From Rhizobium leguminosarum bv. trifolii WSM2297 (lineage in GTDB: Bacteria; Pseudomonadota; Alphaproteobacteria; Rhizobiales; Rhizobiaceae), in assembly GCF_000271845.1 (NCBI RefSeq), contig NZ_JH719395.1:3730361-3794360 (forward strand): 64,000 nucleotides of DNA, written 5' to 3'. Made by a program: the position numbers and the translations under genes. Within the stretch, counting starts at the first letter, position 1, and every line of letters begins with the position of its first letter. Positions 28,952 through 40,292 of this stretch are shown in pieces. The notes beneath the pieces were generated by a model, which saw only the letters and a program-made list of their open reading frames with translations, did not search any database and was not told the origin of the DNA.

Positions 28952-30868
<1,917 letters not shown>

Positions 30869-30979
30869 GTCATTCTCTCCTTGAAGCAAGCTGTCGGAAC
30901 CCCGAGAAGGCATTTCCCTGACAGCCCCTTACGGGATGGGTCTACTTACGATTACGCAATCGTGATTGCGGTGATGCGG

Positions 30980-31011
30980 CGTATATAAGGAGCGGTTTTC
31001 TGGACTGCAAG
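30980..31011 (-). promoter_or_regulatory. RpoH (sigma-32) type promoter of dnaK
   Basis: Minus-strand CTTG (31011-31008) and CTTATATACG (30989-30980), 18 bp apart, match the alphaproteobacterial heat-shock consensus CTTG-N17-CYTATNTNNG in every defined base of the -10 box, with the spacer one longer. It would give a leader of about 105 nt before dnaK. Confidence 0.7.
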
Positions 31012-31150
31012 GCGAGAAATGGCCCGGAATCCAGCAAAACGAATGTGTTGCATTCAATTTTTACAGTCATCGCGAAAGCGGCCGCCCGCCGTCCGGAAAG
31101 CCGCCGATTTCTAACGCATCCGGTCTGTGCCGGCCATGCAGCAAAAGATC

Positions 31151-33490
31151 TCACTGGCCCATGATCAGATCGAGCAGGGTCGTGCGCCGCGGCTGGACTG
31201 AGGAGGTCGACTGCGGCCCCCCGATATCGCCGGGCGGCACGATGCCGTCGTAGCCGGAACCGCCGCCTTCGGCAACGTCGGCGGGGGGAACCGGCCCGTT
31301 GGCGGAGGTTGCGCTCTGTTGCCGGACAGGCGCCTGCGGATAGCGGTTGGCACTGTCGTCGCCGCCGAAGACGCCGGAAATGATGCCGCCGATCGTCGAA
31401 GGCGGCGCCTCGGCCGTCATCGGTTGCCCGCTGCCCGCTTGTCCATTACCAGGGGCTGCCTGCGCCATCGGCTGACCATTGTTCGGATCGGCGATCAACT
31501 GGCCGTTGCCGAACAGCGGCGCCGGCGAAAGACCCTTGTGGGCGGCGATCATGAATTCTTTCCAGGCTTTGGCTGGAAGGCCGCCGCCGGTCACCTTCTT
31601 CATCGGCTTGCCGTCGTCATTGCCGAACCACACCCCGGTGGTCAGGTTGCTGGTGAAGCCGACGAACAGCGCGTCGCGCGAATTCTGCGTCGTGCCGGTC
31701 TTTCCGGCCGCCTGCCAGCCGGGGATCTTGGCGCTCTTGCCGGTGCCGTTGTCGATGACGCCCATCATCATCGCATCCATCTCGGCGACGATCTGCTCGG
31801 ACAGCACGCGCGGCGGGCTATCATAGGTATTTTCGTAGAGAACTTTGCCCTCGGCGGTCGTCACCCGGCGAATGACATGCGGCGTCGCCTTGTAGCCGCC
31901 GTTCATGAAGGCGGCATAGGAGGCGGTGAGTTCCATCAGCGACACCTCAGAGGTGCCGAGGGCGATCGAGGCGTTCGGCTGCAACTCGCTTTCGATGCCG
32001 AGCCGGTGGGCAAGCTTGATCACCTGATCCGGCCCGTCATACATCACCAGCTGGGCAGCCACCGTGTTCAGCGATTTGGCAAGTGCGGTCGCCAGCGTCA
32101 CTTCGCCATTGTATTTCTTCTCGTAATTTTCGGGCGTCCAGTCGCCGATGCGGATCGGCGCATCGTTGAACACCGAAAAAGGCGTCAGTCCCTTTTCCAG
32201 CGCTGCGGCATAGACGAAGGGCTTGAACGAGGAGCCCGGCTGGCGTTTGGCCTTGACGGCGCGGTTGAACTGGCTCGTCGCATAATCCCTGCCGCCGACG
32301 AGCGCCCGGATCGCACCGGTGCCGTCGATCGAGACGAGGGCTGCCTGCGAAGCGTCGAGCTTTCCGCCCTCCTTGTCGAGCACGTCGACCAGCGATTGCT
32401 CGGCCTTCTTTTCCAGCGACTTGTCGATGGTCGTATCGACGATGACGTCTTCCTTGACGTCGCCGATCAGACCCGGCAATTCGTCCATCACCATGTCGGC
32501 GACATAGTGTCCGGCTCCGGACCAATAGCTCTTGGCCGAGGCCGGGGTCTGGGACATCGCGGTCTTGACCTCGGAATCGGTGATGAAGCCCTGCTCGCGC
32601 ATTGCCGCCAGCACGAGCTGGGCGCGCGCATTGGCGGCGTCGGCGTCGCGGGCCGGCGAAAGCCGAGACGGCGCCTTGAGCAGGCCGGCCAGCACCGCGG
32701 CCTCGCCAAGGTTCACGTCACGCGCCGATTTGTTGAAATAGCGGCGTGACGCCGCCTCGACGCCATAGGCGTTCGATCCGAAGAACACCCGGTTGAGATA
32801 CATCGCAAGGATTTGGTCCTTGGTGTATTTCTGCTCCAGCCACAGCGACAGCAGCACCTCCTGCACCTTGCGTTCCAGCGTTCTCTCAGGCGAGAGGAAG
32901 AGGTTCTTGGCGAGCTGCTGCGTCAGGGTCGAGCCGCCCTGCACCATGTGGCCGGCCGTGAAGTTGGTCACGATCGCCCGGCCGAGGCCGAGCGGGTCGA
33001 CGCCGAAATGCGAATAGAAACGCCGATCCTCGATGGCGATGACGGCTTCCGGAATATAGGGCGACATGTTCTCGAGCGACAGCGCCTCGCCGCCGGTGGC
33101 GCCGCGATTGGCGATGACGCTGCCGTCGACAGCGGTGATCTTGACGTTCGGCGGCCGATCCGGGATTGCCCATGTGCTGGCGCTCGGCATGCGTGAGCCA
33201 TAATAGACCACCAGCCCGGCAACGCCGATGCCGGCCCAGATGAACAGCACGACGCACCAGTAGATCACGCGGCGGAGGAAACCGAAAAAGCCACCGCCTT
33301 CGCGCTCCCGCGGCTCGCGCCGCTTCCGCGGGGCGGGGCGTTCCGGCGGCGGTTTGGAACTGCCGCGCCGCGAAGATCTGCTTCCGACAACACGGTCATC
33401 GGCATCGAGCGAAAATTCGTCATCGTCGCGTGCCGGGCGGCCGCTGAAGGACGGTTCGATTCTGTCGCCTGATCTGCCTCTGCCTGCCAT
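31151..33490 (-). CDS. Bifunctional class A penicillin-binding protein (PBP1A type)
   Basis: Peptidoglycan glycosyltransferase/transpeptidase of about 779 aa. A basic, Arg/Pro-rich cytoplasmic tail precedes one membrane helix (VIYWCVVLFIWAGIGVAGLV, about 80-100). The GT51 domain has EDRRFYSHFGVDPLGLGRAI (near 153) with the catalytic Glu, and QGGSTLTQQLAKNLFLSPER. The transpeptidase has SxxK in GSSFKPFVYAA (Ser near 418), SxN in KSLNTVAAQL, and KTGTTQNSRD near 596. A disordered Gln/Ala/Gly/Pro tail follows. ATG at 33490 was chosen; ATGs at 33511 and 33538 are possible. A full CtrA-type box lies about 200 bp upstream. Confidence 0.93.
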   Translation of the reverse strand: MAGRGRSGDRIEPSFSGRPARDDDEFSLDADDRVVGSRSSRRGSSKPPPERPAPRKRREPREREGGGFFGFLRRVIYWCVVLFIWAGIGVAGLVVYYGSRMPSASTWAIPDRPPNVKITAVDGSVIANRGATGGEALSLENMSPYIPEAVIAIEDRRFYSHFGVDPLGLGRAIVTNFTAGHMVQGGSTLTQQLAKNLFLSPERTLERKVQEVLLSLWLEQKYTKDQILAMYLNRVFFGSNAYGVEAASRRYFNKSARDVNLGEAAVLAGLLKAPSRLSPARDADAANARAQLVLAAMREQGFITDSEVKTAMSQTPASAKSYWSGAGHYVADMVMDELPGLIGDVKEDVIVDTTIDKSLEKKAEQSLVDVLDKEGGKLDASQAALVSIDGTGAIRALVGGRDYATSQFNRAVKAKRQPGSSFKPFVYAAALEKGLTPFSVFNDAPIRIGDWTPENYEKKYNGEVTLATALAKSLNTVAAQLVMYDGPDQVIKLAHRLGIESELQPNASIALGTSEVSLMELTASYAAFMNGGYKATPHVIRRVTTAEGKVLYENTYDSPPRVLSEQIVAEMDAMMMGVIDNGTGKSAKIPGWQAAGKTGTTQNSRDALFVGFTSNLTTGVWFGNDDGKPMKKVTGGGLPAKAWKEFMIAAHKGLSPAPLFGNGQLIADPNNGQPMAQAAPGNGQAGSGQPMTAEAPPSTIGGIISGVFGGDDSANRYPQAPVRQQSATSANGPVPPADVAEGGGSGYDGIVPPGDIGGPQSTSSVQPRRTTLLDLIMGQ

Positions 33491-33559
33491 CGCCGACCGG
33501 TCACACCCCATGTTCGATCGCGAAGCCCGGCTTCGCACAACTGCGCTTCTACCGCGCCG

Positions 33560-33655
33560 CGGGTTTTTTAGACGCGCAAAGGACGCTGTAGCACTTTGAC
33601 GTGCTGCATAATCTTGTCCTGAAATCGATTTCGATTTGAGGGATTATGCAGTGGC
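33560..33655. repeat. Dispersed palindromic intergenic repeat, copy 1
   Basis: The block TTAGACGCGCAAAGGACGCT followed by GTAGCACTTTGACGTGCTGC and an imperfect palindrome (ATAATC..GAAATCGATTTCGATTT..GGATTAT) recurs in inverted orientation at 51430-51535. A short piece (CAGACGCGCGAATGAGGCTG) also occurs at 34359-34378. This is a rhizobial intergenic repeat. It sits upstream of the PBP gene, next to a CtrA-type box. Confidence 0.75.
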
Positions 33656-33691
33656 GACGTGATCATCCGACTGAACTGTAATTGCGGCGAT

Positions 33692-33707
33692 TTAACGGGG
33701 TATTAAC
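33692..33707. promoter_or_regulatory. CtrA-type box upstream of the PBP gene
   Basis: TTAACGGGGTATTAAC is an exact TTAA-N7-TTAAC match, the full binding site of the alphaproteobacterial cell-cycle regulator CtrA. It lies about 200 bp upstream of the PBP start and about 140 bp downstream of the stop (33842) of the preceding minus-strand gene. A role in timing of cell-wall synthesis is an inference. Confidence 0.55.
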
Positions 33708-33841
33708 GATGGAAAGCAAAGCAGACCGCGCCGCGAAAGAGTAGCGCCGATCCGGCCTGGTGCGACGCGCTTTAGAGCTTTGATTATGCCAGTCGGATCC
33801 CACCACCGCTGCCGCCTTGTCGCGCGGCATGCATAGCCAGT

Positions 33842-34063
33842 TCAGAACTGGCGGGCCTCGTAATCGTCGAGCGTTTCCGGGTCCTGCTTATATTCCCACT
33901 CGCCCAGATGAAAGCGGCGCCAGATCTGGCCGGAAGGGTCGAGGGGCGCGCCGTCGGTAAGGCGGACCGGAAGGAGTGGATTGTGTTTATGCCAGACGGT
34001 AACATCGATAGTGGCTGAACGAGCGCCGAAAAGCCCCAAGAAAGTCAGGTAGTCTTGCGTCAT
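33842..34063 (-). CDS. Small hypothetical protein
   Basis: Protein of 73 aa from the ATG at 34063, preceded by GAGG 9 nt upstream. The sequence starts MTQDYLTFLGLFGARSATID and has an aromatic-rich second half (IWRRFHLGEWEYKQDPETLD) with an acidic end. No family recognised. A longer frame begins at 34099 without a ribosome site. It is monocistronic, between a CtrA-type box and a plus-strand small-RNA candidate. It is probably real, given the clean start and protein-like composition. Confidence 0.55.
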   Translation of the reverse strand: MTQDYLTFLGLFGARSATIDVTVWHKHNPLLPVRLTDGAPLDPSGQIWRRFHLGEWEYKQDPETLDDYEARQF

Positions 34064-34199
34064 TGGGGCCAGCCTCGAACGGATAAAATCAATCCGCAAT
34101 GTCGCGAAAGTGCATTAAAGAATCCCGTTGCACAAGTCGAGGATTGCATTTCAGGGTCGCAGCCTTGCGCCGCGCATCTTCTGTCCGGCCGACGGAACC

Positions 34200-34335
34200 T
34201 ATAAGCTTCACGATTGTTTATGATGAAGCGGGACAACCCCTCACGTCCCGCGTAAGATCGGCCGTCTCCCCTCAACACGCGCCGATCGACATCAGGCCCG
34301 GTGCATCCCTCAACGGGAGCGCCGGGCTTTTTATT
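34200..34335 (+). ncRNA. Candidate trans-acting small RNA with three C-rich-loop hairpins
   Basis: Three hairpins in a row, each exposing a CCCTC or CCCCTC stretch. Hairpin 1 (34228-34251) is GCGGGAC-AACCCCTCAC-GTCCCGC. Hairpin 2 (34256-34287) has stem GATCGGC/GCCGATC with CTCCCCTCAAC in the loop. Hairpin 3 (34296-34327) has stem GCCCGG/CCGGGC with an inner TCCCTCAACGGGA and is followed by TTTTT, so it is an intrinsic terminator. No plus-strand gene precedes it. The exposed pyrimidine loops could pair with GAGGG-type ribosome sites, as in known anti-Shine-Dalgarno sRNAs. CTATAAG at 34199-34205 may be part of the promoter; the 5' end is unknown. Confidence 0.75.
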
Positions 34336-34420
34336 GCAAGGCCCTTGCTCGCCTTTTCAGACGCGCGAATGAGGCTGTGACATTGACAAGAGCGGCGGCC
34401 TTGCGACCGCCGCCGATATC

Positions 34421-35119
34421 TCAGTCGCAGGACGGATCGCCCGGGCGGCAGACGAAGGGCGAAGCCCTGGGGTCGGGCCGCTTGTAGGTATCGGCCTTCC
34501 CGCCCCTGAACTGCGGCAGGTCACGGAAATCCGAACTCCTGGTATCGCCCCTGTTGTCATCCCGACGGTCCGACCTGCGGCTTTCGCCTCTGCGATCTTC
34601 CCTTCGATTGTCGTCGCGCCAGTCCCGGTCGCGATTTCGGTTACGATCCCCGTAGTCGCGATCCCGATTGCGATCCCCATAGTCGCGATCCCGATCCCGG
34701 TTACGGTAGTAATAATCAGGGCCGCGGCTCCAGCGGTCGCGGTCACGGTAGAAATCGCGGTTGCGGTAATTGCGGTCCCAATAATTGCCGACACTGAAGC
34801 TGATCATCGGAATGCCGAGCGGGCGGTAATATTCCGGACCGACATAGACACGGCGTTGCTGGTAGACAGCCTGGACATACTGGCCGGAAACCCAGCCGCG
34901 ACCGCCATAGAATTCGACGTCGCACCAGTTGACGTCGGAAAGACATCCACGGATTTCGACGGCGGAACCGGCGGGCACGACTGCGACGGCAGGGTACCGG
35001 GTGCTCGGACCTGCACGCATGTTGACGTTCGCCGTCGAGTAGCCCTCGGCGGCCTGCGCAATCACCGGAGCTAGCACAAACAGGCCAGCTACAGCGATTT
35101 TAACAATGAGATTTTTCAC
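34421..35119 (-). CDS. Exported SH3-domain protein with Arg/Asp/Asn repeat region
   Basis: Protein of 232 aa. The GTG at 35119 is the likely start because GAGGAG (35133-35128) lies 8 nt upstream; another GTG at 35128 touches that site. A signal peptide (IVKIAVAGLFVLAPVIAQA) is followed by an SH3 domain (YSTANVNMRAGPSTRYPAVA, WCDVEFYGGRGWVSGQYVQA) and PEYYRPLGIPMISFSVGNYW. A low-complexity region of about 90 residues follows, made of NRDRDYGD- and RRDDNRGD-like repeats rich in Arg, Asp, Asn and Tyr. It ends with a Cys pair (FVCRPGDPSCD). Its location would be the periplasm or cell surface; the function is unknown. Confidence 0.85.
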   Translation of the reverse strand: MKNLIVKIAVAGLFVLAPVIAQAAEGYSTANVNMRAGPSTRYPAVAVVPAGSAVEIRGCLSDVNWCDVEFYGGRGWVSGQYVQAVYQQRRVYVGPEYYRPLGIPMISFSVGNYWDRNYRNRDFYRDRDRWSRGPDYYYRNRDRDRDYGDRNRDRDYGDRNRNRDRDWRDDNRREDRRGESRRSDRRDDNRGDTRSSDFRDLPQFRGGKADTYKRPDPRASPFVCRPGDPSCD

Positions 35120-35377
35120 GCTTCTCACTCCTCGTTTGGCGCGTTTTCAGCCAGCGCCTGGCTGCCTTTTCTTGGCACATGCCATCTGCAGGAAAAGATA
35201 GAACGATCGCCCGCATTTGTTAGGGCGCCACCATTTTCCTTGTCTTTCAAAGGCTTATACCCGGTCGCGATGAACGCAGCTTGAACGAGGGGAATTTTGT
35301 GATCCGGTATGGCGTTTCGACATGCCGGATGAAATCGCAAAGGGGCGTGATGTGACCGCCGTCGGCGCTGTGATGCG
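35120..35377. other. Leader/intergenic region of the SH3-repeat gene
   Basis: About 260 bp upstream of the GTG start. It holds the ribosome site GAGGAG at 35133-35128 and a GC-poor stretch around 35220-35260, but no recognisable gene. The promoter of the SH3-repeat gene should be here. The CtrA-type palindrome begins at its right edge. Confidence 0.4.
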
Positions 35378-35393
35378 TTAACGATTCGTTAAC
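35377..35393. promoter_or_regulatory. CtrA-type box, perfect palindrome
   Basis: GTTAACGA-T-TCGTTAAC is a perfect 17-bp inverted repeat and contains TTAA-N7-TTAAC on both strands, the full CtrA site. It lies just before the plus-strand small-RNA candidate (35405-35500) and about 260 bp upstream of the minus-strand SH3-repeat gene; either could be the target. Confidence 0.6.
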
Positions 35394-35404
35394 CTTTCCG
35401 GGGC

Positions 35405-35500
35405 AGTCTCGTTGCAATACCGCTTTCTCCTTGACCACGGATGAACTGGCACTGAGACGAGCGGACGACGAAAGGCCGGTTTGAACCGGCCTTTTTGTTG
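35405..35500 (+). ncRNA. Candidate small RNA, paralogue of the one at 20947-21105
   Basis: TGACCACGGATGAACTGGCA at 35432-35451 is identical to the minus-strand segment 21030-21011 and forms the same small hairpin, CCA-CGGATGAAC-TGG. The transcript would end at an intrinsic terminator (stem AAAGGCCGGTT/AACCGGCCTTT at 35471-35494, then TTTTT). A CtrA-type palindrome precedes it by about 15 bp. No ORF fits. The terminator could also serve the convergent M20 peptidase gene. Identity with the alpha-r8/MmgR family is a suspicion only; 5' end estimated. Confidence 0.65.
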
Positions 35501-35545
35501 TCGCGATTTCTATGCTGCGTCTTGGCTAAAGGCGCCCAGTCTCTG

Positions 35546-36934
<1,389 letters not shown>

Positions 36935-37159
36935 TTTCGACTCCTTTTCGAAATTTGGCCGGACGATAGACCAAACTGGGAAAGCAGGCGAGGCGGAAAA
37001 AGTAAAAATTAGCGGCCCGCAAGTGTGCTGAAACGACACAATTCGGGTCTTTATCGAAGGGCATGTCGCGATAATAAAGAAAGACCTAATTCAATTTACA
37101 GTTAATTAGCACAACCTAAATAGCATCGGCCGAAAATAAGCTGTTCGGGGGGCGCGCAG

Positions 37160-39493
37160 ATGTTTTCGGTTATTGCATGTATTCGCGACAATCACGATTG
37201 GCGCCTGGTCATAGTGGCGGCCGCGGTCTGCCTGGTTGGCGCCATGGCGGCGATGCTGCTGCTTTCCCGGGCCCAGGAGTGCGACGCCGGGCAGCGCAAG
37301 CTCTGGATCGGCGCGTCGGGTTTTGCCTTCGGCACCGGCGTATGGGCAACGCATTTCATCGCGATGCTTGCTTATGACGGTGGCACGCCGATCACTTACG
37401 CGCTCGACCTGACGCTGCTTTCCTTTCTCCTGTCGGTCGCAGGCTCGTGGCTGGCGATGCTTGCCGCTTCGCAGCGTGACGGAAGGTTTTCCGATATCGG
37501 CGGCGGCGTCCTGATGGCGCTCGGCATCGCTTCCATGCACCTGACCGGCATGCAGGCCATCGAGACGCAGGCGATAATCCTCTACGATCCCGCAATGACA
37601 CTGACAGCGGTCGCTGCGGGAATGTTTTTGTCGAGCGCCGCTTTCCATATTTTTTTCAATCTGAAGGGTATGAGGCGTCTCCTCAGCTCATCGCTGGTCT
37701 TCGTCCTCGCCATCTGCACTCTTCACTTCATTTCGATGGGCAGCATTACCCTCGTGCCGGACCCCGGCAAGGCGGTTCCGACATTGGTGCTCGACACCAG
37801 GGTGCTCGCCGCGATCGTCGTGGTCGCGGCAACGGCTCTTATCCTGGTCGCACTTGCCGTGGTCTTCGTCCAAAGCCATTTGACGGATCTGCGCGGACTT
37901 GCCAATGCCTCGCAGGAAGGGCTGCTGATCCTGCGCGAAGGTCGGATCATCGATGTCAACGAGCGGTTCCAGGCCTTGTCCGGCTGGAAGCTTGCCGATC
38001 TCTCCGGCAAGGCGCCCGCCGATGTGCTGACCGTCGTTCAGGCGCCCCGGGAAAACAGGCCCGGCGAGACGCTGCTGAACACCCGCACCGGCAGAGAGAT
38101 TGCCGTCGAAGCAAACTCCAGCAAGATTGTTTATCGTGGCCGCAATTGCGAGGTGCTGGCGGTGCGCGATCTCACCGAGCGCAAGCAAGCCGAGGAGATG
38201 ATCGAGCATCTCGCTCATCACGATGTGCTCACCGATCTGCCGAACAGGTCGCTGTTCGACACCCGCATCCGCCAGGCGCTGCAGGTGGCGGAACGCAAGA
38301 ACACCGAGGTCGCGCTGTTCTGGCTCGACCTCGATCGATTCAAGGCCGTCAATGACATTTTCGGCCACGCCGAAGGCGACCGCATCCTCCGCAAGGTGGC
38401 CGCTATCCTGCGCCGGGTGGCCGGTGAGAACGATACGATCGCCCGGCTCGGCGGCGACGAATTCGCCATCATCCAGTCCGCAGGGCAGCAGCCGGCATCG
38501 GCGCAAAAGCTTGCGGTTGATATCATCGACGAATTCGCCGCCGAGATGGACACGGCTCGTGACCCCACCGCCGTCGGCGTCAGCCTCGGCATCGCGCTCT
38601 ATCCAAGAGATGGGAGCACGGCCGAAGAGCTTTGCAACAACGCCGATACCGCGCTCTACCGCGTCAAACATGACGGCCGCGGCAGGGCCTGTTTCTTCGA
38701 CGCGGAGATGGACGAAGCGGCGCGGAACCGCCGCCAGATCGAAAGCGACCTGCGCCACGCGGTCATCCGCAACCAACTCCATGTCAGCTATCAGCCGATC
38801 CTCAACGCGCAGAGTGGCGAGATCAGCGGCTACGAGGCCTTGATGCGCTGGCACCGGCCGGGCCACGGCATGACCGAGCCCGACATTTTCATCCCGATCG
38901 CCGAGGAAAGCGGTTCGATTGTTCAGCTTGGCGAATGGATATTGCGGCAGGCCTGCATGGAGGCGGCGCGCTGGCCGCAGCCGCTGACGATTGCCGTCAA
39001 TGTCTCGCCGGTGCAGTTCATGCTGCCCAACCTGTGCGAGCGGGTCGAGGCGATCCTCACCGAGACGGGGCTTGCAGCCGATCGGCTGGAGCTTGAGATC
39101 ACCGAGTCAGCCCTGATCCGCGATCGCGACCGGGTGCTGGCAACGCTGCAGCGCCTGTGCAAGTTAGGGGTGCACATCGTCATGGACGATTTTGGCACCG
39201 GCTACTCCTCACTCTCCAACCTGCGCTCGTTTCCCTTCGACAAGATCAAGGTCGACCGCAGTTTTACCGGCGTGCTGGAGCATGACGCGGCGGCGCGATC
39301 GATCGTGCGCGCTATTATCGGTCTCGGCCAAAGCCTCGGCATGTCCGTGGTCACCGAGGGGGTGGAAACGGAGATGCAGCGTCAGATCGTCGTCGAGGAA
39401 GGCTGCGCGCAGGTGCAGGGCCTGTGGCTCGGCAAGCCGGATATCGAGCCCAGCGTCAAGCTCGCCGCGCGCGACAGCGTCCTGTCCGCCTAA
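37160..39493 (+). CDS. MHYT-PAS-GGDEF-EAL membrane signalling protein
   Basis: Likely cyclic-di-GMP enzyme (777 aa). Residues 1-240 are the seven-helix MHYT sensor with its Met/His repeats (THFIAMLAYDGG, MHLTGMQAIET, LHFISMGSITL), thought to bind metal or diatomic gas. A PAS domain follows at about 245-345 (LANASQEGLLILREGRIIDV). The GGDEF domain has an intact RLGGDEFAII at about 430. The EAL domain starts with YEALMRWHRPGHG at about 557 and includes ELEITESALI, DDFGTGYSSLSNLRSFP and KVDRSF. Both catalytic domains look intact, so it could make or break c-di-GMP. Alone in its transcription unit. Confidence 0.94.
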   Translation: MFSVIACIRDNHDWRLVIVAAAVCLVGAMAAMLLLSRAQECDAGQRKLWIGASGFAFGTGVWATHFIAMLAYDGGTPITYALDLTLLSFLLSVAGSWLAMLAASQRDGRFSDIGGGVLMALGIASMHLTGMQAIETQAIILYDPAMTLTAVAAGMFLSSAAFHIFFNLKGMRRLLSSSLVFVLAICTLHFISMGSITLVPDPGKAVPTLVLDTRVLAAIVVVAATALILVALAVVFVQSHLTDLRGLANASQEGLLILREGRIIDVNERFQALSGWKLADLSGKAPADVLTVVQAPRENRPGETLLNTRTGREIAVEANSSKIVYRGRNCEVLAVRDLTERKQAEEMIEHLAHHDVLTDLPNRSLFDTRIRQALQVAERKNTEVALFWLDLDRFKAVNDIFGHAEGDRILRKVAAILRRVAGENDTIARLGGDEFAIIQSAGQQPASAQKLAVDIIDEFAAEMDTARDPTAVGVSLGIALYPRDGSTAEELCNNADTALYRVKHDGRGRACFFDAEMDEAARNRRQIESDLRHAVIRNQLHVSYQPILNAQSGEISGYEALMRWHRPGHGMTEPDIFIPIAEESGSIVQLGEWILRQACMEAARWPQPLTIAVNVSPVQFMLPNLCERVEAILTETGLAADRLELEITESALIRDRDRVLATLQRLCKLGVHIVMDDFGTGYSSLSNLRSFPFDKIKVDRSFTGVLEHDAAARSIVRAIIGLGQSLGMSVVTEGVETEMQRQIVVEEGCAQVQGLWLGKPDIEPSVKLAARDSVLSA

Positions 39494-40142: not shown

Positions 40143-40292
40143 ACAAAAATCGCCATGGCCTGGAGGTTGGCCATGGCGACCTTAAAGTGGGGACAAAGGC
40201 CCGGAGAGGGGGATAAGGCCTTTGTCCAAGCCTGACGCGGCGGGGGACAAGCCGGTGATCAGACCCGCGGCGCGATCAAGCGCCGGTGACAT
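40143..40292 (-). ncRNA. alpha-r7-type small RNA between the MarR gene and polA
   Basis: On the minus strand an intrinsic terminator (stem CGCCATGGCC/GGCCATGGCG at 40178-40151, then TTTTTGTTT) is preceded by a second stem, GGACAAAGGCC/GGGCCTTTGTCC (40228-40190), with CTTATCCCCCTCTCC in the loop. A further fold lies around 40229-40290. Three hairpins, a C-rich loop and the location between marR and polA fit the alpha-r7 (Smr7C) family described in Sinorhizobium meliloti. The family is assigned from synteny and shape; the 5' end is approximate. Confidence 0.75.

Follow-up and report, generated by a model that had tools for sequence, protein, structure and literature searches.

The window, by which we mean the whole 64-kb stretch of DNA that was analysed, contains a predicted small RNA (sRNA) gene on its plus strand, flanked on both sides by minus-strand genes (Table 1). 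ORF85 and the gene of a class A penicillin-binding protein (PBP) are located on one side of the sRNA, and the genes of an SH3 protein and an M20 peptidase on the other. The original prediction held that there is no plus-strand gene within kilobases, which is likely: the neighbours are on the minus strand, and among six frames put to Pfam the sole plus-strand frame with a domain starts at 37160, with more plus-strand frames listed in 30000–39000 beyond these six. A small conserved open reading frame without a Pfam match (33842–34060, minus strand) lies between the PBP gene and the sRNA; 73 amino acids of it align at 77–93% identity in many Rhizobium loci, and other loci contain no match. In the interval that separates the SH3 gene from the M20 gene, approximately 1 kb downstream of the sRNA and on its strand, there is a match to the Rfam family ar35 (35372–35501, plus strand, 49.2 bits against a cut-off of 45). 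A full-length match to the ar7 sRNA (122.1 bits) occupies 40144–40288 of the minus strand.

Table 1. Features of the sRNA locus, in positions of the window.
Feature	Position	Strand	Basis or remark
Class A penicillin-binding protein gene	31151–33538	-	flanks the sRNA
EcfG/RpoE2-type (general stress response) promoter, predicted, GGAAC-N16-TGTT	34194–34218	+	sequence and conservation
Predicted sRNA, about 108–110 nt	34225–34334	+	start inferred from the position of the -10 box
Hairpin 1, stem GCGGGAC/GUCCCGC, loop AACCCCUCAC	34228–34251	+	fold, covariation, loop retention
Hairpin 2, near-invariant loop CUCCCCUCAAC at 34266–34276, proposed seed	34256–34287	+	fold, exposure, conservation
Hairpin 3 and U-tract, intrinsic terminator	34294–34332 (hairpin 34294–34329)	+	fold and sequence
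SH3 protein gene	34421–35128	-	flanks the sRNA, side opposite the PBP gene
M20 peptidase gene	35546–37039	-	flanks the sRNA, SH3 side

The minimum free energy of the predicted sRNA is -56.6 kcal/mol, compared to -33.5 ± 3.3 kcal/mol for 200 shuffled sequences, none of which was as stable (z = -6.90). The three successive plus-strand hairpins of the original prediction are thus borne out. The interval then assigned to the sRNA, 34200–34335 (z = -6.19), has to be shortened, since the RNA begins at approximately 34225 and positions 34200–34224 belong to the promoter and spacer. Hairpin 3 is followed by a U-tract on the plus strand only, in agreement with the expectation that the last hairpin is an intrinsic terminator, and was not among the results of a simple terminator scan. 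The CCCCUCA of hairpin 1 and the CUCCCCUCAAC of hairpin 2 are exposed, with unpaired probabilities of 0.87–1.0. A CCCTC loop had been proposed for each hairpin, but in hairpin 3 of the window the CCC of CCCUC is paired with GGG (unpaired probability at most 0.01), and UCAAC alone is exposed.

The loops differ in their conservation. The sets of 73 and 65 distinct loci compared here were picked by a pattern that includes the loop of hairpin 2, and the conservation of this loop is therefore claimed only from low-scoring members of the family found by the covariance model R1, which scores the window, one of its own sequences, at 119.7 bits. Twenty such members were hand-picked among the 34 lowest of 101 R1 matches; the ten lowest were all included, and of the 14 omitted some had already been sampled and others were left out without a reason. 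All 20 retain CCCTCA in hairpin 2 and 17 retain CCCCTCA, in a sample in which R1 itself rewards this loop and some members come from the same genomes as the named loci. The loop of hairpin 1 keeps CCCCTC or CCCTCA in 47 of the 65 distinct loci (L125, which lacks its 3' end, was left out of this set) and has lost the C-run in the other 18, and that of hairpin 3 varies between clades. Free variation of the loops within an otherwise conserved sequence, which had been named as evidence against a regulatory RNA, is thus seen in hairpin 3, whereas hairpin 1 is partly and hairpin 2 strongly constrained. The constraint on the predicted loops points to one seed, CUCCCCUCAA of hairpin 2, rather than to the three equal loops first envisaged. 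From its exposure and constraint, we infer that hairpin 2 is the seed.

The covariation of the stems, proposed earlier as a check, was analysed in a MAFFT alignment of 65 distinct RNAs (A2), and three measures exceeded all of 500 shuffles while two did not. The paired cells amounted to 99.4% against 97.5% in shuffles, the cells changed on both sides to 46 against 12.2, and the covariation to 0.198 against 0.156. When the partners were slid, pairing fell to 36–43%. The number of pairs with a double change (5 against 3.9; 128 of 500 shuffles as high) and that of further pair types (24 against 23.1; 145 of 500) were not exceptional. A model-fitted alignment that includes diverged members (A3), biased towards structure by construction, gave a similar picture, with 12 and 111 of 500 shuffles as high on the last two measures. 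Hairpin 1, in which three of six pairs have changed on both sides, is the main source of the covariation support in A2. The conservation and the paired changes of the stems lend good support to the prediction of a trans-encoded sRNA that exposes C-rich loops and ends in a terminator of its own. It is highly improbable that the conserved block just combines a promoter with terminator hairpins, or that it is a short coding sequence. A 93-codon frame (34099–34380, plus strand) spans the block and an 11-codon frame from 34220 was noticed by eye. There is no Pfam match, the ATG is lost in some homologues such as L007, the loop lengths differ between species by 1–8 nt, not just by multiples of three, and the internal stems show covariation.

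The RNA is distributed within one genus and remains at one genomic location. Of 61 relatives searched by BLAST, 20 contain the region, and these are all among the 37 that share the genus of the window. With the R1 model, 101 of 148 genus genomes have a single match (E ≤ 1e-6) and 47 have none. A pattern scan of named genomes returned 52 loci, all from Rhizobium or a Rhizobiales bacterium. In 247 genomes of the family, representing 109 genera, R1 exceeded 95 bits in four, all of the genus; the other matches scored 31–41 bits, and 21 of the 25 matching genomes were such weak cases outside the genus. Of 394 genomes of the family, five contain a strict pattern for hairpin 2, and all five are from this genus; a search of the plasmid collection with the RNA region gave no match. 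Of 102 loci, among which some genomes are counted twice, 101 have at least one recognisable neighbour among the PBP, SH3 and M20 genes; the remaining locus is a stretch of 786 bases. The RNA was absent from all 20 of the 47 matchless genomes inspected over 5 kb past the 3' end of the M20 gene, and in 19 of these the PBP gene was also absent there. The exception, G025, has kept the PBP and SH3 genes and lacks the RNA.

The promoter of the sRNA, overlooked in the original prediction, is the best clue to its function. The -35 box GGAAC (34194–34198) and the -10 box TGTT (34215–34218) are separated by 16 nucleotides and agree in eight of nine letters with ggAAC-N16-cgTT, the EcfG consensus of R. 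etli (PMC4167512). GGAAC-N16-NGTT occurs only once in the window, when both strands are scanned. All 73 distinct loci, the window included, have the form GGAAC-N16-NNTT in this position, and 55 of them have the stricter NGTT form of the -10 box. All 20 low-scoring covariance-model members, which were chosen blind to promoters, contain GGAAC-N16-NNTT as well, and the DNA upstream of the promoter varies widely among homologous loci. A scan of 33500–35000 with an E. coli-like consensus revealed no sigma-70-type site. The position of the promoter implies that the RNA starts near 34224–34227, directly before hairpin 1, and a near-consensus EcfG promoter is thus located at transcription-start distance from the sRNA, as in RNAs of the GsrN and ReC64 kind. 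NepR, a core protein of the general stress response, is encoded in all five genomes of the genus that were tested. The comparison of the loci establishes a predicted three-hairpin RNA gene that is conserved together with its terminator, its location, and an EcfG-type promoter at a fixed distance. The sRNA is very probably real and driven by EcfG.

EcfG (RpoE2) motifs have been predicted before 23 sRNAs of S. meliloti (PMC3616915), and EcfG-driven sRNAs as such are therefore already known. The 88-nt ReC64 of R. etli, which is encoded downstream of phyR-tcrY and depends on EcfG1, was according to its authors the sole down-regulated non-coding RNA with an EcfG1 motif in ecfG mutants (PMC3892343). 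Its authors did not settle the role of EcfG-dependent RNAs such as ReC64 (PMC3892343). ReC64 and the sRNA described here are both small RNAs of the same genus with an EcfG-type promoter; however, ReC64 is adjacent to phyR-tcrY and its EcfG dependence has been demonstrated, whereas our predicted sRNA lies between the PBP and SH3 genes. Since the loci differ, it would be a further sRNA of the EcfG type. In loci L221 and L223, a structured, C-rich RNA with an EcfG-type promoter in front of it is present near nepR on the reverse strand (at approximately 2592 and 2488, respectively); this RNA is probably a relative of ReC64 and differs in sequence from the sRNA. We take genome G009 to be that of R. 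etli CFN42. Provided that this is correct, the sRNA is absent from the 18 regions in Table 1 of PMC4167512. It may already have been detected in R. etli, within a list of 89 non-coding RNAs (PMC2881028).

GsrN of Caulobacter is also EcfG-driven, and its C-rich loop pairs with G-rich targets, katG among them (PMC5869019). It shares with the sRNA an EcfG(SigT)-type promoter and an exposed C-rich loop, but occupies a different locus, and the likeness is drawn from descriptions rather than from a sequence alignment. An activator of the GsrN kind, in which the C-rich loop of an EcfG-driven RNA activates a target such as katG, is an improbable reading of the sRNA, although it would agree with these shared features. 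GsrN-like RNAs have been predicted near the phyR locus in Rhizobiaceae, whereas GsrN of C. crescentus itself is encoded away from phyR/nepR/ecfG (PMC5869019). Our sRNA is also away from phyR/nepR/ecfG, next to the PBP, SH3 and M20 genes; the phyR locus is the place of ReC64 in R. etli (PMC3892343). In genome G001, one contig encodes both NepR, at 3.14 Mb, and the sRNA, at 4.35 Mb. Furthermore, when the 1.5 kb that precede the catalase-peroxidase domain were searched for TGAGGG(G) or GAGGGGA in six genomes, no complement was nearer than 410 nt, as judged by simple patterns and by distances from the domain rather than from a mapped katG start.

The family of the sRNA, not recognised in the original prediction, resembles alpha-r14. 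No Rfam model reached its gathering score at the sRNA locus; however, ar14 (RF02344) aligns over its full length (1–123) at 34218–34334 with 38.4 bits (E 5.7e-6 for 251 bases), below its gathering score of 58.8 bits. Alpha-r14 RNAs such as NfeR1 and SmelA075/SmelA099 are alphaproteobacterial trans-acting sRNAs with three hairpins, the last of which is a terminator, and C-rich anti-Shine-Dalgarno loops of the sequence CCUCCUCCC (PMC10746234; PMC3927594). NfeR1 represses the translation of ntrB and blocks Shine-Dalgarno sites (PMC10746234). The sRNA has the same layout and similarly C-rich, anti-Shine-Dalgarno-like loops, which agrees with the initial suggestion of a design for blocking several Shine-Dalgarno sites, except that a single loop, that of hairpin 2, dominates the constraint. 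Instead of CCUCCUCCC in each hairpin, the sRNA has AACCCCUCAC, CUCCCCUCAAC and UCAAC; CUCCCCUCAA of hairpin 2 stands where alpha-r14 has CCUCCUCCC, and the C-run of hairpin 3 is paired. The promoter of NfeR1 is of the sigma-70 type, CTTAGAC-N17-CTATAT with an LsrB-type box (PMC10746234; PMC3927594); before the sRNA, the scan with an E. coli-like consensus showed no sigma-70-type site, and the predicted promoter is of the EcfG type. Because of the score below the cut-off, the other loops and the other promoter, the sRNA was not filed as alpha-r14. Common descent of the two or the same working principle is likely.

It is unlikely, if less so than an activator of the GsrN kind, that the sRNA is just a diverged alpha-r14 copy with nothing beyond the anti-Shine-Dalgarno action of that family. 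The full-length match of 38.4 bits and the shared three-hairpin layout are in favour of such a copy, as is the finding that R1, outside the genus, picks alpha-r14 RNAs among its weak matches of 31–41 bits. Among the loci L055–L077, 16 of 23 contain two or more CCUCCUCCC and none of these 16 has an EcfG-type site; several of the other seven look like chance terminator matches. The evidence against a mere copy includes, besides the low score and the loops with CCCCUC in place of CCUCCUCCC, the 3–10 ar14 matches at E ≤ 0.01 in each of 37 of 37 genomes of the genus, one of which may be the sRNA itself, compared to one R1 match per genome. Moreover, none of 30 ar14 loci, the best of each genome (L021–L050), has GGAAC-N16-NNTT at promoter distance, whereas a GCATTGCTGC-type upstream motif is present in 24 of these 30 canonical alpha-r14 loci of Rhizobium. 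A single locus, L049, contains GGAAC-N16-NNTT approximately 100 nt upstream of the first loop. The sRNA suggests a way in which an anti-Shine-Dalgarno design could be adapted within one genus, through a new loop, a new sigma factor and a single copy.

Based on the promoter, the structure and the conservation of the RNA, a mechanism of action can be proposed. Under stress, PhyR would free EcfG from NepR, and EcfG would transcribe the three-hairpin RNA from the conserved promoter. The exposed loop of hairpin 2, 5'-GUCUCCCCUCAA-3', whose first two bases come from the closing stem, may then pair with ribosome-binding sites of the UUGAGGGGA type. By analogy to alpha-r14, this pairing would block translation at G-rich ribosome sites, and in many species hairpin 1 may carry the seed a second time. 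We consider base-pairing through hairpin 2 to be quite probable. A small regulatory RNA of Rhizobium, induced by EcfG and pairing through hairpin 2 with ribosome sites, is probably the best explanation of the observations.

The prediction of targets at ribosome sites, which had been suggested as a check, gave a divided result: a k-mer and duplex test was not significant, and petB emerged when 10 whole genomes were searched for 10-nt complements. The first test covered 800 kb of each of two genomes, in which a simple finder identified 724 and 735 genes, forming 555 orthologue pairs. The conservation of seed k-mers in the start regions of these pairs was not significant against 300 permuted controls: 6-mers were present in both start regions of 32 pairs against a mean of 14.4 (19 controls as high), 7-mers in 3 against 2.56 (117 controls), and 8-mers in 2 against 0.45 (26 controls). 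The top pairs include metK, mscL and an ABC ATPase, named from their sequences. The metK complement may be part of the leader of metK itself.

The outcome of the k-mer test would suit titration, in which the sRNA sequesters a partner, either an RNA whose seed is G-rich or a protein with affinity for C-rich loops, instead of blocking an mRNA, and so would the presence of a single strongly conserved exposed loop. Nevertheless, titration has only a slim chance of being correct: no such partner was identified, the complementarity to petB is recurrent, and in GsrN, functionally the nearest analogue, the C-rich loop serves to pair with mRNA (PMC5869019).

For the preferred reading of a block at ribosome sites, a candidate target emerged from a whole-genome search of 10 RNA-bearing genomes, in which TTGAGGGGAG was located within 12 nt of an ATG at 24 places, three of which are the antisense of the sRNA itself. 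The reversed pattern gave three places. The gene of cytochrome b, petB (Pfam Cytochrome_B, PF00033 and others), recurred in eight of the 10 genomes as TTGAGGGGAGACTGATNNATG, and a second gene in two. With the three-fold degenerate control VTGAGGGGAG there were 32 places, 30 of them with loci, and no gene was found in more than two of the 10 genomes.

The survey of the site before petB took in 20 genomes with the RNA (10 and 12, two of which were shared), 18 Rhizobium genomes that lack it and 30 genomes from other genera. Eleven of the RNA-bearing genomes contain the 12-nt site TTGAGGGGAGAC, and in these the duplex with the RNA of the same genome has an energy of -26.4 to -29.5 kcal/mol (with one G-U pair in G337). 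The remaining nine contain TTGAGGGGGAC, with own-RNA duplexes of -18.6 to -25.6 kcal/mol. Among the 18 RNA-lacking genomes, the full 12-mer is present in one (G025), and the other 17 form duplexes of -20.7 to -21.1 kcal/mol with the one fixed RNA that was used. The sequence TTGAGGGG precedes petB in all 18 RNA-lacking Rhizobium genomes and in eight of the 30 of other genera; the latter contain no 12-nt complement, and their longest run is nine. The TTGA of the match is the end of the upstream gene petA (GGT TGA; petA identified by sequence) and the GGGG is the ribosome site, and much of the match is therefore inherited. RNA-bearing and RNA-lacking genomes belong to different clades, so that the association with petB is suggestive only. 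The overlap of the own-RNA energies of nine of the 20 genomes with those of RNA-lacking genomes lowers the odds of petB and of a bc1-directed function. We regard petB as a possible but doubtful target of the sRNA.

We speculate that petB, in the operon of the cytochrome bc1 complex, may be a main target of the sRNA. If this is true, the general stress response would turn down respiration post-transcriptionally. The sRNA would then constitute an undescribed second RNA arm of the general stress response of Rhizobium, of alpha-r14 design with a new loop, which is transcribed by EcfG, covers the ribosome-binding site of petB in the petABC mRNA, and lowers the synthesis of cytochrome bc1; this complete scheme is tentative, and slightly less likely than petB being a target at all. 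NrrF of Neisseria, which acts on petABC (PMC5586341), is an earlier example of an sRNA directed at the cytochrome bc1 operon, but it is controlled by Fur in an unrelated organism, and the two were compared by description only. The EcfG-type promoter in every homologue examined, together with one constrained loop and a concrete candidate target, makes the role of EcfG-linked RNAs directly testable in a plant symbiont.

A palindromic motif ending in GATTTGAGGGATTATGCA was noticed by eye at 33605–33650, upstream of the PBP gene. The motif has one match in the window, where 0.02 are expected. A similar motif is located directly upstream of the -35 box of the sRNA in several homologues, for example at approximately 1480–1497 of L010.
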